A stretch of 35,088 nt of DNA from IMG/VR virus record IMGVR_UViG_3300030102_000728, positions 1 through 35,088 of that record; one strand, 5' to 3'. The notes under the pieces are model-generated. The model was not told where the DNA came from and did no database searches. It saw nothing but the letters and a program-made list of their open reading frames with translations. How positions within the stretch are numbered: the stretch's first letter is position 1; every line of letters begins with the position of its first letter. The position numbers and the translations under genes are program-made. The stretch is from a virus. This document shows, piece after piece, positions 62 through 35,088 of the stretch.

Positions 62-124
62 TTGTTTCCTTTCAGTTAATTAAAGTTAATAAATAAATAT
101 GGCTATAATTAGGCATTGTTTTTA

Positions 125-347: not shown

Positions 348-506
348 CTATTTGTTGTATTGTTGATTTTTAAAAATTTCACGTTTTAAATTTTTGTGAT
401 CTTTTTCTGTCATTTCATCTTCATATTTAAAAATATCAGCATAAGTTTTTACTGATGGATCAAATGGCGGATATTTAATTTGTATTAGTTTTCTTTGCTT
501 TGTCAT
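348..506 (-). CDS. hypothetical accessory protein, 52 aa
   Basis: The reading frame runs from ATG 506 to TAG, with AAAGGAAACT immediately upstream. The product starts MTKQRKLIQIKYPPFDPSV, contains an acidic/basic helix around residues 25-45 and ends QQYNK. It has no membrane segment and no cysteines. The stop codon lies just before the ribosome site of the next gene. It forms one removable unit with the 70-residue gene: the 444-bp difference between the two ends of the window removes both. Function unknown. Confidence 0.65.
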   Translation of the reverse strand: MTKQRKLIQIKYPPFDPSVKTYADIFKYEDEMTEKDHKNLKREIFKNQQYNK

Positions 507-523
507 AGTTTCCTTTCAGTTGT

Positions 524-742
524 TTATTTAATAAATTTAATTTGTTTTTGTGTCAATTTTGTGGCATGAAAACCGACAGCTTCAAGATCACTTGTAAAGA
601 ATTGGCAACTATCACACCTTTCAATATGTGGTTTATGATAAGGATCATTTTTTGAAATTAAGCCTGTACTCTTTACATCTTGAAAATATCCATAACCCTC
701 GCAATCTTTACAGTTATTTATTTTGTATTTATATTTTTGCAT
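524..742 (-). CDS. small zinc-ribbon-like protein, 72 aa
   Basis: Two CxxC pairs are visible: NCKDCEGYGYF near residues 10-20, which resembles half of a DnaJ CxxCxGxG repeat, and RCDSCQFF near residues 42-49. Together they could hold one zinc ion. Residues 51-72 form a basic, probably helical tail (ATKLTQKQIKFIK). The start at 742 overlaps the stop of the 116-residue gene by one base, so translation is probably coupled. The 3' part of this gene recurs at 35012-35088. Zinc binding is inferred from the cysteines; the role is unknown. Confidence 0.7.
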   Translation of the reverse strand: MQKYKYKINNCKDCEGYGYFQDVKSTGLISKNDPYHKPHIERCDSCQFFTSDLEAVGFHATKLTQKQIKFIK

Positions 743-1092
743 TATTTACCTTTTGTTGATTGAACATAATCTTTTAAAATATAAAAGTTAAAAGTATATT
801 CATTGTTTTTATTAAAATTATTTACAAATCTTTGAAATTCTTTTTTTGAACCTCTAAGAGTATGACAGGCACAATCTAAAAATTTTTCACCATTACAATT
901 TAAATCTTCAACATTAAGCCAATCAATATCGTTAATTAAATGTAAATGTTTTTTATAAATAATATGGTTTGACCATTGACCACCTTGATCACTAGCAATG
1001 AAGATAAAATTATTTAAAGGTGAAATTGCATACCAACTAGCATAACTTCCTCTAAAATTTTTTCTAGTTTTTTTCCAAATTAATTTTATCAT
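742..1092 (-). CDS. hypothetical accessory protein, 116 aa, first gene of the island operon
   Basis: The frame is open further upstream, but the ATG at 1092 follows a good ribosome site (AAAGGAAACT) and gives 116 residues starting MIKLIWKKTRKNF. The product has a Trp/Tyr-rich N-terminal half (SYASWYAI, GGQWSNHI) and a CAC motif near residue 75. I do not recognise it. It is the promoter-proximal gene of a leftward run of small genes that continues through the circular junction to 32913. The gene-free stretch 1093-1584 lies upstream. Confidence 0.7.
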   Translation of the reverse strand: MIKLIWKKTRKNFRGSYASWYAISPLNNFIFIASDQGGQWSNHIIYKKHLHLINDIDWLNVEDLNCNGEKFLDCACHTLRGSKKEFQRFVNNFNKNNEYTFNFYILKDYVQSTKGK

Positions 1093-5858: not shown

Positions 5859-6722
5859 ATGTCAAATGAACAGATAACACAAGAAACTGTGCCTGTAGAA
5901 CAAGCGACTACAGAAACAGCACAACCTACAACAGCACCAGTAGCTACACCTACTGCACAACCAACATCATCTTGGAAAGATTCTATTAGTGAAGAATATA
6001 GAAATGATCCTAACATTGAAAAATTTACTGAAGCAGATTCTTTAGCTAAATCTTATATCAATGCAGTTAAAATGATTGGTCAAGATAAAATAGTTATACC
6101 TACAAAAAATTCTTCACAAGAAACATGGGATGAAGCCTATGCAAAATTAGGTAGACCAGAATCTGCAGACAAATATTCTTTAGATGTAAAATCAGATGTT
6201 GTTCCTTTTGATGAAACTGCAATTAAATCTTTTGCAGAACAATCACATAAACTTGGTTTAAATAATAAACAAGCTCAAGGTATATTAGAGTTTTATAAAA
6301 ATAATATGGAAGGCTCTGCACAACAAGCAAAAATAGATACTGAAACTGCTCAATCTCAAGCTGAACAACAGTTAAGACAAGAATGGGGTAGAGACTTTGA
6401 AGGTAAAGTAAAACAAGCTGGTGCATTAGCTAAAGCTAATATTAATCCAGAAATTTTAGATATGACTTTATCAAATGGTATAAGACTTGGAGACCATCCA
6501 GAAATTATTAAAGGCTTTGCAAAAATAGCAAACATGATGTCAGAAGATAAAATTATTGCAACTGAAAGTGAAAATGTAAATACAGTTGCAGATATTGAAT
6601 CTGAAATATCAGCTATTACTAATGATACTGATGGACCTTATTGGAATAAGCAACATCCAGATCACGATAAAACAGTACAACAAGTTTACACATTAAGAGA
6701 AATGTTAAATGCTGATCAATAA
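5859..6722 (+). CDS. capsid assembly scaffolding protein
   Basis: At 287 residues, with a disordered Thr/Gln/Pro-rich N-terminus (1-38) followed by SSWKDSISEEYRNDP and IEKFTEADSLAKSYI. After this comes KIVIPTKNSSQETWDEAYAKLGRPESADKY, the recognisable core of podovirus scaffolds (written here as three stretches: KIVIPTK, ETWDEAYAKLG, RPESADKY). The C-terminal half is helical and charged. It directs capsid protein assembly and leaves the head before or during packaging. The location between connector and capsid genes fits. The 56-residue gene starts inside its 3' end. Confidence 0.85.
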   Translation: MSNEQITQETVPVEQATTETAQPTTAPVATPTAQPTSSWKDSISEEYRNDPNIEKFTEADSLAKSYINAVKMIGQDKIVIPTKNSSQETWDEAYAKLGRPESADKYSLDVKSDVVPFDETAIKSFAEQSHKLGLNNKQAQGILEFYKNNMEGSAQQAKIDTETAQSQAEQQLRQEWGRDFEGKVKQAGALAKANINPEILDMTLSNGIRLGDHPEIIKGFAKIANMMSEDKIIATESENVNTVADIESEISAITNDTDGPYWNKQHPDHDKTVQQVYTLREMLNADQ

Positions 6723-6879
6723 TCTTAATGATAAAGAAATTCGGTTAGAAATATTGCGGTTGGTTAAGGAGACAGGATCTGAACTTCAGAAAAATGATCC
6801 CTTGCCAATCGCTGAAAAATATTATAATTGGATAGTAGGTAAGAAAATTCGCAAGAACCTTACTGGCAAGAAGGAATAG
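6709..6879 (+). CDS. small helical protein between scaffold and capsid genes, 56 aa
   Basis: The ATG overlaps the last 14 bases of the scaffold gene. The product starts MLINNLNDKEIRLEILRLV and contains PLPIAEKYYNWIVGKK, with a basic end (RKNLTGKKE). Small genes of this kind, with an LEILRLV helix and an AEKYYNW helix, occur before capsid genes in related marine phages as far as I know. Function unknown. It is clearly coding by overlap and composition. Confidence 0.65.
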   Translation: MLINNLNDKEIRLEILRLVKETGSELQKNDPLPIAEKYYNWIVGKKIRKNLTGKKE

Positions 6880-6980
6880 ACTTCTAGTCTAAAAGACTTA
6901 AAATCCAAGAATTGCCTGTCAATTAAGATGGATAACCTTTCTGATTTTTTTATAATAACAATAATAATGGAGAGACAATT
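6880..6980 (+). promoter_or_regulatory. structured leader of the capsid gene
   Basis: This 101-base gap is large for the genome. It can form two small hairpins: AGTCT/AGACT (6886-6890 with 6894-6898) and AATTG/CAATT (6910-6914 with 6920-6924). A TATAAT follows at 6951-6956 and the ribosome site GGAGAG lies just before the capsid ATG. A -35 box at proper spacing is not evident. It could be a capsid-specific promoter or an RNA stability element that raises capsid yield. Confidence 0.4.
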
Positions 6981-28396: not shown

Positions 28397-29065
28397 TTAC
28401 TGACCATTGTTTAATTGTAATTCACGAGTTTCAGCAATGTCTGTGACTTGCCTGTATGCTCGTAAATTATTTCTTAGTAGATATTCAACATTTGCTCTGT
28501 GCTTTTCTTTAGCAATATTAAAATCTTTTAAAGATTTAGCACTTTTAAGTTCATGTTTTATATCTTCTACATCTATGGTTTCATCCATGTATGTAGGTTC
28601 TTCAACAGATTGCTCTGAAGAATTTTTTTTAGATGGCAATGTATCATATTTCCTTTCTAAAAATGGTACTGGCTCATAACCATCCTCATCTTTGATACCT
28701 GTTTTAAGATTTAATAAATTTAAGAACGCATACTTTCTTGAGTATGACATGGCATTACCAGTTCCAAATTTATCAAGATTACCAAATGCTGAACACCCAT
28801 CAACAAGTATATGTTGCGTTGGATCATCAACATCATAAACTTTCATAGTACATACGACCATTACTTGTTTTATGTTTGGTACAATCTCTGTCAGATAATT
28901 ACAAGTCGCATACAAACCATTGTCTAATAAGGCTTGTGTTGCAACTGCTTGTACATTATCATGTAGCAATGGGTTAAAGTGCATCCCATTTGCCTTTGCT
29001 CCTTTCTTGACACTCTTTGCACTTAAACAAGCATCATGTAGTTTTTGATATATATTTCTTTTCAT
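28397..29065 (-). CDS. erf: ERF-family single-strand annealing protein
   Basis: Residues about 99-130 contain KFGTGNAMSYSRKYAFLNLL followed by GIKDEDGYEP, the core signature of ERF recombinases (G-x-x-x-S-Y-x-R-[KR]-Y-x-L and the acidic D-E-D-G). The N-terminal part (FNPLLHDNVQAVATQALLDN) also fits. The 222-residue length is usual. It anneals complementary strands in phage recombination and genome circularisation. AAAAGGAAACA precedes the ATG. A PD-(D/E)XK nuclease gene lies upstream in the same operon, giving the classical nuclease plus annealase pair. Confidence 0.85.
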   Translation of the reverse strand: MKRNIYQKLHDACLSAKSVKKGAKANGMHFNPLLHDNVQAVATQALLDNGLYATCNYLTEIVPNIKQVMVVCTMKVYDVDDPTQHILVDGCSAFGNLDKFGTGNAMSYSRKYAFLNLLNLKTGIKDEDGYEPVPFLERKYDTLPSKKNSSEQSVEEPTYMDETIDVEDIKHELKSAKSLKDFNIAKEKHRANVEYLLRNNLRAYRQVTDIAETRELQLNNGQ

Positions 29066-33526: not shown

Positions 33527-33644
33527 TTAGTTCCCTTTCTTGTTGTTTATAATAGGTGTATATTACACCCCTTGCATTTAAAATATTTATGAGAGTTAAT
33601 CTCATAAGTTCTTCTAAATTTTGTTTTTGTAGTTGTTTATTCAT
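33492..33644 (-). CDS. hypothetical helical mini-protein, 50 aa
   Basis: The start ATG overlaps the stop of the 49-residue gene (ATGAATAA). The product MNKQLQKQNLEELMRLTLIN continues with LNARGVIYTYYKQQERELNE and ends inside the next gene. The first 24 residues form an amphipathic helix. The overlap with a neighbour and lack of its own strong ribosome site lower the certainty. Confidence 0.45.
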   Translation of the reverse strand: MNKQLQKQNLEELMRLTLINILNARGVIYTYYKQQERELNETMDNKKIVK

Positions 33645-33786
33645 CATCTTCAGTTTCTTGTATTAATTCACCTTGATCATAACCTTGTTTAATTAATTCT
33701 GCAATATGCTCAAGATCAGCATCATTTGGTTTATAGTTTGGGTAATCATCTATTGTTAGTTTCCACCAGCTTCTTTTTGTTTCCAT
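33637..33786 (-). CDS. hypothetical acidic mini-protein, 49 aa
   Basis: The ATG at 33786 is preceded by the long repeated leader with AAAAGGGAAA. The product METKRSWWKLTIDDYPNYKP continues as NDADLEHIAELIKQGYDQGE and ends with an acidic tail. It resembles small phage proteins with a D-x-x-L-E-H-I-A-x-L-I-x-x-G-x-x-x-G-E helix, of unknown role. Confidence 0.6.
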   Translation of the reverse strand: METKRSWWKLTIDDYPNYKPNDADLEHIAELIKQGYDQGELIQETEDDE

Positions 33787-33820
33787 TTTATTTTTCCCTT
33801 TTGTTTAGTTGTTTATTCAT
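33784..33820 (-). repeat. 37-bp leader repeat, copy 1
   Basis: This block is identical to 34026-34062. In the coding direction it carries the last codon and stop of the upstream gene (GAATAA), a spacer, the ribosome site AAAAGGGAAA and the ATG of the next gene. The second copy does the same for another pair of unrelated genes. Confidence 0.9.
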
Positions 33821-34028
33821 TGTCTTTTTTTAATGGAATATTATCTTGTAGTGATTCAAATAAATTTAAACAGCTACAAATTAATTCTGCTCTATGAACA
33901 GAATCACAAAATGCAACAGTTTCAATTTTACCATTTTGTAAATCATAATTAACACCATTAAGATCACAAAAATAATTACCCTCAAAATATTCTTTGTCAA
34001 TCATATCTATATTTATATATTTAGTCAT
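33813..34028 (-). CDS. hypothetical accessory protein, 71 aa
   Basis: The product starts MTKYINIDMIDKEYFEGNYF and has VAFCDSVHRAELICSCLNLF in the second half, ending KKDNE. Three cysteines lie in a helical hairpin-like part. Both of its ends lie inside the 37-bp repeats, so the gene sits between two identical seams. Function unknown. Confidence 0.6.
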   Translation of the reverse strand: MTKYINIDMIDKEYFEGNYFCDLNGVNYDLQNGKIETVAFCDSVHRAELICSCLNLFESLQDNIPLKKDNE

Positions 34029-34062
34029 TTTATTTTTCCCTTTTGTTTAGTTGTTTATTCAT
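34026..34062 (-). repeat. 37-bp leader repeat, copy 2
   Basis: Identical over 37 bases to 33784-33820; the flanks differ at once on both sides. The two copies are 242 bases apart and bracket the 71-residue gene. Confidence 0.9.
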
Positions 34063-34211: not shown

Positions 34212-34391
34212 TTATTTTTCCTTTCTATTTGCTTTGTCAATTATATCATCTGGCAAAGGTTCTATATCGTAGTCGTAATGTATGGCTAAACTGTGTTCAT
34301 CTAGTTCTATTTCCTTTCTTAATCTAGCCAAATAATCATTGAAGTCTTTTATTGTTTTACCTATTTTATCGTAGCTACTATCATCACTCAT
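34212..34391 (-). CDS. hypothetical acidic helical protein, 59 aa
   Basis: The start directly follows the stop of the upstream gene. The product MSDDSSYDKIGKTIKDFNDY continues LARLRKEIELDEHSLAIHYD and ends DKANRKEK; the codons for the last residues also form the AAAGGAAAA ribosome site of the next gene. Mostly helical. Not recognised. Confidence 0.6.
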   Translation of the reverse strand: MSDDSSYDKIGKTIKDFNDYLARLRKEIELDEHSLAIHYDYDIEPLPDDIIDKANRKEK

Positions 34392-34407
34392 TTATTCCTC
34401 GCTTTCT
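34389..34407 (-). repeat. 19-bp seam repeat CATTTATTCCTCGCTTTCT, copy 1
   Basis: Copies lie at 34389-34407, 34563-34581 and 34698-34716. In the coding direction each contains AGCGAGGAA (ribosome site), the stop TAA and the next ATG. In the first two the same bases encode the C-terminal Ser-Glu-Glu of the upstream protein; in the third the site lies just after the stop of the 92-residue gene. Confidence 0.9.
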
Positions 34408-34565
34408 TCATAACTTTCAGTAATTTGAAAGTGATCTCGTTCTATTATTTCATCACCGGAAAAATCACCACTGTTCACAATCTCTTTTGCTTTCTCTAAT
34501 GTTTCAGCTTTTATTTTTACTTGTGATGTACACTCTTCAATAAATGTTATATTATATACTTTCAT
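34392..34565 (-). CDS. DpnD/PcfM-like mini-protein, 57 aa (second copy)
   Basis: The product reads MKVYNITFIEECTSQVKIKA, then ETLEKAKEIVNSGDFSG and an acidic end ESYEESEE. It has the same strand-strand-helix plan as the 51-residue protein two genes away (V-x-I-x-A-E-T-L-E-K-A-K-E-I-V), so both may be distant paralogues. The gene lies exactly between two copies of the 19-bp seam repeat. Confidence 0.6.
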   Translation of the reverse strand: MKVYNITFIEECTSQVKIKAETLEKAKEIVNSGDFSGDEIIERDHFQITESYEESEE

Positions 34566-34581
34566 TTATTCCTCGCTTTCT
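34563..34581 (-). repeat. 19-bp seam repeat, copy 2
   Basis: Identical to the copy at 34389-34407. It joins the 44-residue gene to the 57-residue gene; TAA and ATG are adjacent without any base between. Confidence 0.9.
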
Positions 34582-34700
34582 GGCTCATTAACAAATCTTA
34601 CTACCATGACTATTCCATTTTCATCTACATGTTCTACTTCAATCTTATGTGTAGGACATTCATTGATCCATTTATTTATTTCTTCATCATATATTTTCAT
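34566..34700 (-). CDS. hypothetical mini-protein, 44 aa
   Basis: The product MKIYDEEINKWINECPTHKI continues EVEHVDENGIVMVVRFVNEP and ends ESEE. A short helix is followed by two strands. The gene sits between copies 2 and 3 of the 19-bp seam repeat. Its last residues equal those of the 57-residue protein because of that repeat. Confidence 0.6.
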   Translation of the reverse strand: MKIYDEEINKWINECPTHKIEVEHVDENGIVMVVRFVNEPESEE

Positions 34701-34716
34701 TTATTCCTCGCTTTCT
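34698..34716 (-). repeat. 19-bp seam repeat, copy 3
   Basis: Identical to the copies at 34389 and 34563. Here it follows the 3' end of the 92-residue gene, so the stretch AGCGAGGAATAA lies between two genes rather than at the end of one. Confidence 0.9.
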
Positions 34717-34993
34717 ATTTGTTTAAGTCTGTTAAGATATACTCACCGCTTTTTATTTTGGCTCGTGTATCTTTTATAGTTTCACCTAAAAATATATTTC
34801 TATATTTGCCTGTGGTGTTGCTATAATTCCAATATTTTTTATCTAATTCCACAGGTTTTAAATAATAAGAATTATATTTTTTTACAATCATTGAATTATA
34901 AGATTGAAAAAATTGATTCCCATTATCATCAGTAATAACAAATTGATTTGCTATTTTATTCCCATTGTTGCTTGTTATGTTTTCTACTTTCAT
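34715..34993 (-). CDS. hypothetical accessory protein, 92 aa
   Basis: AAAGGAAACA precedes the ATG. The product contains NQFVITDDNGNQFFQSYNSM, then IVKKYNSYYLKPVELDKKYW and RNIFLGETIKDTRAKIKSGE. The beta-rich first half (VITDDNGNQFFQSYNSMI) suggests a small barrel; not recognised. This is the complete copy of the gene that is cut at the left edge of the window. Confidence 0.7.
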   Translation of the reverse strand: MKVENITSNNGNKIANQFVITDDNGNQFFQSYNSMIVKKYNSYYLKPVELDKKYWNYSNTTGKYRNIFLGETIKDTRAKIKSGEYILTDLNK

Positions 34994-35088
34994 TTGTTTC
35001 CTTTCAGTTGTTTATTTAATAAATTTAATTTGTTTTTGTGTCAATTTTGTGGCATGAAAACCGACAGCTTCAAGATCACTTGTAAAGA
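34933..35088. repeat. terminal repeat of the window, in an alternative (444-bp shorter) arrangement
   Basis: Bases 34933-35009 are identical to 1-77. Bases 34996-35088 are identical to 508-600. The two matches share the 14 bases GTTTCCTTTCAGTT, present at 64-77 and 508-521. The right end therefore closes the circle but skips 444 bp of the left end, which hold the 52- and 70-residue genes. By subtraction the circle is 34932 bp with them or 34488 bp without. Confidence 0.95.
35012..35088 (-). CDS. 3' fragment of the zinc-ribbon-like gene, cut by the window edge
   Basis: This is identical to 524-600, the last 25 codons and stop of the 72-residue zinc-ribbon-like gene. It is the same gene in the alternative arrangement, where it lies directly upstream of the 92-residue gene. 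Confidence 0.85.
   Translation of the reverse strand, partial: FTSDLEAVGFHATKLTQKQIKFIK

Follow-up and report, generated by a model that had tools for sequence, protein, structure and literature searches.

Probably coexisting gene-content versions, joined at start-leader repeats, at a small-gene locus of an HTVC010P-type pelagiphage

The window analysed here is the whole of IMG/VR virus record IMGVR_UViG_3300030102_000728, 35,088 bp in length. It is collinear in one place with HTVC010P (62% of positions 1-24000 covered, at 84% identity), which identifies it as an HTVC010P-type pelagiphage, and it also matches Skadi and HTVC203P. A leftward-transcribed module of small genes spans the two ends of the record (Table 1), and on the coding strand its long form reads A, B72, C52, D70, a 53-bp linker, E92, F44, G57, H59 and onward, with the long-form E92 starting at 61 and crossing the circle to 34932-34715. 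None of the variable genes received a usable functional assignment from defence, Pfam or PHROG searches. E92, the fixed gene downstream of the variable joint, has distant relatives in phages of Acinetobacter, Proteus, Edwardsiella and Shewanella (37-47% identity), and is thus a widespread phage gene. Elsewhere in the window lies a gene for an Erf-type annealing protein, and near it a phage protein (26750-27286) whose C-terminus holds a DnaA helix-turn-helix domain (Pfam PF08299, 65 bits).

Table 1. Features of the leftward module and related positions; coordinates refer to the window except in the last row, where they refer to the loci named.
Feature	Position	Strand	Remarks
A, first gene of the module, leader CCAAAGGAAACT before ATG	742..1092	-	
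B72, upstream neighbour of the variable joint	524..742	-	
14-bp direct repeat, copy 2, C52 leader	508..521	-	
C52, small gene, in long and middle versions	348..506	-	ORF; relatives L056, L114, L115
D70 leader GAAAGGAAAC; joint partner of 64-73 in the C52-E92 version of L085	339..348	-	
D70, small gene, long version only; also paired with C52 in L056	125..337	-	
Stop-to-start linker GCCTAATTATAGCCATATTTATTTATTAACTTTAATTAACTGAAAGGAAACAA	62..114	-	66 distinct copies in related phages
14-bp direct repeat, copy 1 (AACTGAAAGGAAAC), E92 leader, end of linker	64..77	-	
Right-end (short) version: E92 first 20 codons and leader joined to B72 3' end	34933..35088	-	exact match
Repeat copy remaining at the short junction	34996..35009	-	string comparison
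E92 (phrog_21575), fixed gene downstream of the variable joint	34715..34993	-	long-form start at 61
12-bp GATGAATAAACA, second presence/absence site (two copies flank the extra gene in L005)	33634..33645	-	
Erf-type single-strand annealing protein	28397..29065	-	Pfam ERF 37.2 bits (cut-off 25), PHROG 155
Skadi substitution blocks	L107, L109, L112 ~6391-6914; L108 2361-2553		

The two ends of the window carry two versions of this locus. By exact string comparison, 34933-35009 is identical to 1-77 and 35010-35088 to 522-600, with zero mismatches, such that the final 156 bases repeat the first 77 bases and then jump to 522, omitting 444 bp (78-521). A match of this length with a single clean internal gap is not a chance occurrence. 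The sequence common to both switch points is exactly 14 bp, GTTTCCTTTCAGTT, reading AACTGAAAGGAAAC on the coding strand immediately 5' of a start codon. What the right-end version lacks is two complete open reading frames with their leaders, C52 and D70, as well as most of the ~53-bp intergenic linker; B72 is thereby joined to E92, and the stop, ribosome site and start of both flanking genes are intact. An earlier note on this DNA had described the skip of a two-gene, 444-bp cassette, its switch at a 14-bp direct repeat in the ribosome-site region before a start, and the clean presence or absence of two whole genes (52 and 70 residues) beside neighbours that keep their starts and ribosome sites; all of this proved correct to the base. 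It did not mention that the whole small-gene module uses this repeat as its standard leader, nor that the missing stretch includes a portable linker. An exact test for end repeats would overlook circularity in this record, whose ends match only with the 444-bp gap, and more generally circularity can go undetected when a contig ends in a gene-content variant.

The closest other record of the same phage, IMGVR_UViG_3300030103_001547, contributes a third version and a second variable site. Its two pieces, L085 and L005, differ from the window by one substitution in the first 1,271 bp and by none in the first 1,670 bp, respectively. In L085, C52 is joined straight to E92, with the joint falling within the 10-bp core GAAAGGAAAC and with D70 and most of the linker missing; this piece stops exactly at window base 1 and is followed by a 10-base scaffold gap, after which L005 restarts in the tail of C52 and continues through D70, linker and E92. 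Three versions are thus known (B-E, B-C-E and B-C-D-E), with the caveat that the D70-less version sits in a scaffold with a gap just past its joint. L005 also has an additional complete gene of 81 residues between two copies of GATGAATAAACA, of which the window has one. That difference may represent a gain, because a relative (L007) has the gene order lacking the 81-residue gene.

Among relatives the joint upstream of E92 is a hotspot. A search of the viral collection located E92 in 228 stretches, and within the best 80 of these 228, the 50 non-redundant loci with a recognisable leader have at least 34 different upstream neighbours of E92. We compared pairs of loci whose E92 starts are alike but whose DNA beyond the joint region is unrelated (870 pairs drawn from 52 loci, which share loci and are not independent). 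In these pairs similarity ends either 0-23 bases upstream of the AAGGAA core, in the leader, or 46-59 bases upstream, at the far end of the linker; it ends at 30-33 bases in 5 of 870 pairs and beyond 59 in none. Relatives carry a variety of other genes after B72, and the C52-D70 pair recurs in L056 at 82-87% identity. No relative was found with B72 directly before E92, and the B72-E92 joint itself (77/522) is absent from every other contig searched, having been seen in one contig, near its end.

The cultured Skadi phages offer a more static picture. In nine isolates the gene order at the locus is unchanged, with no gene difference seen, and seven isolates compared at the base level show 0-51 substitutions and nothing else; because gene order is constant and only substitutions occur, turnover is not visible in this set. 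Relative to Skadi-4, differences in near-identical isolates fall mainly in tight substitution blocks near a gene annotated 'transcriptional regulator' or near terminase, and these blocks look like possible recombination tracts.

Repeated start leaders are a general property of the module. Counting direct repeats of 14 bp or longer whose copies lie no more than 1 kb apart, we find 14 pairs in it where a Markov model predicts 0.3, and in 11 of the 14 both copies lie in start-codon leaders. Most genes of the leftward module are preceded by such a leader, with a core of AAAGGAAAC or a near variant a few bases before ATG and the consensus (A)ACTGAAAGGAAAC. Across 60 related loci AAAGGAAAC occurs 177 times, versus 6 in Markov sequences, and ATG follows within 8 nt in 169 of 188 copies in related loci (17% by chance). 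The sequence GAAAGGA is able to pair with UCCUUUC at the alphaproteobacterial 16S rRNA 3' end, and on account of this possible pairing we take the leader core as a ribosome site. The conserved bases flanking the core exceed what a ribosome site needs, which parallels the argument made for the SAS repeats of cluster K mycobacteriophages. The longest leader repeat is a 37-bp perfect direct repeat, ATGAATAAACAACTAAACAAAAGGGAAAAATAAAATG, before two adjacent genes (33784-33820 and 34026-34062, minus strand); being the longest in the module, it is a likely next place for deletion. A different arrangement is seen in AGAAAGCGAGGAATAAATGA, present in three copies within 34388-34716 (minus strand) and spanning one gene's last codons and stop and the next gene's start (F44, G57, H59); it is a coding-plus-leader repeat.

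The linker upstream of E92 extends the leader back to the preceding stop, and in relatives such a longer linker often stands before genes of this module. It has the form GCCTAAnTnnAGnCATAnTnATTTATTAAnTTTAATTAACT(AAC)GAAAGGAAAC, a short spacer and ATG, and a second, more diverged type exists. We collected 66 distinct copies with both neighbours: ATG follows in 66 of 66, and the GCC-TAA of the linker supplies the TAA stop of the upstream gene in 49 of 66, the stop otherwise lying 4-13 bases before GCC. The neighbours comprise 41 protein families in 56 different ordered gene pairs; ten families occur on both sides of the linker, while E92 is always downstream. By degenerate match the linker is present in 45 viral-contig stretches; it also occurs in the isolates HTVC203P and Skadi, whereas a scan of bacterial and archaeal species genomes found it in none. 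We found no description of it in the pelagiphage literature, in a search that covered subscription papers in part, and it appears so far undescribed in pelagiphages. The linker also contains TTAAC-N5-TTAACTGA. In marine Beggiatoaceae and some cyanobacteria, start codons are known to be immediately preceded by direct TAACTGA repeats (PMC4679880), a likeness that may be due to chance.

What the linker does is less readily read from its sequence, which leaves a promoter, a translation leader or merely homology kept by recombination as candidate roles. Matches to sigma70-type promoters at the linker and the locus are at the level expected by chance in AT-rich DNA, and 1-1800 contains one terminator-like site, inside D70. 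A structured RNA was rejected: RNAalifold placed no base pairs in 12 linkers, no conserved pairing was seen in the alignment, and there was no Rfam match. We also considered a 14-codon mini-ORF (MPNYSHIYLLTLIN) running through the linker. Its frame is kept in many copies, yet these bases are better read as the stop of the preceding gene; the sequence ahead of the mini-ORF varies and has no conserved ribosome site, and its first base varies among A, T and C.

The known versions differ by whole genes, with joints that lie in repeats and preserve gene boundaries. We consider it probable that the window ends represent two versions, present side by side, of a small-gene locus that is hypervariable in nature in an HTVC010P-type pelagiphage and is subject to repeat-mediated turnover, and the most likely cause is natural turnover of gene cassettes by short-homology recombination or deletion at the leader repeats. 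Repeat copies would anneal or slip against one another as phage DNA replicates, and the intervening genes would be deleted or exchanged, using perhaps 10-14 bp of homology within one genome and up to ~50 bp of linker when two different phages are involved. Since a joint at a repeat always keeps the stop, ribosome site and start, the products would be functional and could persist, and selection would retain the joints that do no damage to genes. A plausible candidate helper of such exchange is the Erf-type annealing protein. An Erf recombinase from phage D3 matched Red-beta in efficiency on both identical and diverged DNA (PMC3945230); a role of Erf at repeats of 10-14 bp is hypothetical. Slippage without any recombinase is equally possible for the deletions. 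More tentatively, and on balance doubtfully, the linker may be a general gene-docking site at which any small gene that it flanks drops in and out without harm to the neighbours, with Erf swapping cassettes so frequently that several versions are present together in a single population.

The same repeats may explain why the contig ended here, with an assembly graph presumably forking at the shared sequence. Positions 1-77 are exactly the sequence shared before the versions diverge, and 524-600 are 77 bases counted from the B72 stop codon. Both contig ends would be branch vertices in an assembly graph with K = 77, a reading that is arithmetic on coordinates rather than assembler output; if it is right, it suggests a further, unseen version diverging just after the B72 stop.

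Turnover could have run in either direction at this joint. In a gain scenario, C52 and D70 would have entered together, by way of the leader repeats, an ancestor in which B72 adjoined E92; the extra 81-residue gene of L005, which resembles a gain when set beside the L007 order, and the various other genes that follow B72 in relatives are consistent with this. We nevertheless regard insertion of the pair as rather unlikely, as the C52-D70 pair is old, no B72-E92 relative was found, and B-C-E is an intermediate that fits stepwise loss. On such comparisons we tentatively favour loss over gain of C52 and D70, given their old pairing in L056 and the intermediate form.

The earlier note had held that either of the readings it entertained, a mixed population or an assembly joining two forms, implies real variation at this point, thereby overlooking a chimera produced in library amplification. 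The short junction would then be an artefact of template switching between leader repeats, kept by the assembler for want of another exit for the path around the circle. Chimeras would be expected at short direct repeats, 79-93 bp separate the junction from the contig end, and the junction was matched in no other contig. Such a chimera is possible for the B-E joint, yet it does not account for the second contig, where another junction was formed at these leaders and an entire additional gene sits internally, or for the natural variation of relatives at exactly the same joint, and we judge both the template switching and its retention by the assembler to be unlikely. That the switch point is a place of real variation is well supported, since the near-identical sister contig has a third version and a second whole-gene difference and the joint is a hotspot in 50 relatives; for the two-gene-less junction in particular, the window remains the one instance.

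It is also worth considering whether the linker could be the dedicated site of a site-specific recombinase, akin to an integron cassette system, being compact, oriented and fixed in place between many different flanking genes. This seems very improbable: the linker has no foldable structure, joints also occur at leaders without it, and none of ten proteins scanned from 26.7-32.9 kb gave an integrase or resolvase match. A physical terminal repeat of packaged DNA, for which the 125-bp direct terminal repeat reported for some Skadi assemblies (PMC10504331) offers a precedent, was rejected as scarcely credible, because such a repeat should be identical at both ends and here there is a 444-bp gap at gene joints, the Skadi repeat is reported to include the terminase gene and not the variable locus, and the sister contig runs across the place. 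The Skadi records themselves (OP131293-OP131302) begin at different genes, despite the repeat reported for several of them; that repeat might be an assembly overlap and not a physical end.

Pelagiphages are among the most abundant viruses of the sea, the host group of HTVC010P-type phages being the abundant marine SAR11 bacteria, and micro-variation breaks their short-read assemblies. This locus offers a concrete anatomical reason for such breaks, in that the start leaders are themselves recombination-prone repeats. With joints known to the base, and with cultured carriers of the linker in HTVC203P and Skadi, accessory-gene gain and loss in lytic phages becomes directly testable, and the linker is a ready marker for finding cassette genes whose function is unknown.

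Several known systems resemble this one in part. In the same phage group, HTVC010P-type genomic islands are low-coverage variable regions that break short-read assemblies, but those described in the accessible portions of PMC3909814, PMC6487183 and PMC10504331 concern the tail fibre, ribonuclease and internal virion region and are given there with no joint sequence. The marine cyanophage S-PM2 likewise lost a block of unknown genes, its 'ORFanage', with both forms detected in lysates by PCR; that deletion removed 9.5 kb in one event in which its authors think PeSLs unlikely to be involved (PMC4503421), whereas the pelagiphage versions differ by single genes or pairs at 10-14-bp leaders. Halovirus HF2 has AT-rich intergenic repeats of 56-58 bp in an early-middle gene region, but it is an archaeal virus whose repeats are promoters by reporter assay, with no link to cassette exchange described in the text available (PMC8707807).

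The closest parallels are found in two other phage groups. According to the available part of PMC3203893, the SAS and ESAS of cluster K mycobacteriophages are short repeats with an extended Shine-Dalgarno core before the starts of unrelated small genes, some copies overlapping the upstream stop codon and about half having an extended upstream part; the pelagiphage leader and linker are likewise start-adjacent repeats with a Shine-Dalgarno core before many unrelated genes. The SAS consensus is GGGATAGGAGCCC and ESAS is a 17-bp inverted repeat, whereas the pelagiphage linker lacks structure, and the role that text describes for SAS is translation initiation, whereas in the pelagiphages near-identical phages are seen to carry versions that differ at the repeat. 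The PeSL cassettes of T4-type phages (Arbiol 2010, Comeau 2014), as outlined in the accessible part of PMC4503421, are intergenic repeats that mediate shuffling of small early genes between phages, and the pelagiphage linker and leader similarly lie at the borders of shuffled genes, with 56 ordered pairs over 66 copies and breakpoints in the leader or at the end of the linker. A PeSL consists of a promoter and a stem-loop terminator, whereas the linker has no detectable stem-loop and its sigma70-type promoter matches stay at chance level. By analogy, the pelagiphage element would work like the PeSL of T4 and look like the SAS of cluster K, with the HF2 repeats as a third parallel, while by sequence and structure it belongs to neither PeSL nor SAS. 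The kind of phenomenon is thus already known from SAS and PeSL, and what appears to be new is the pelagiphage linker.
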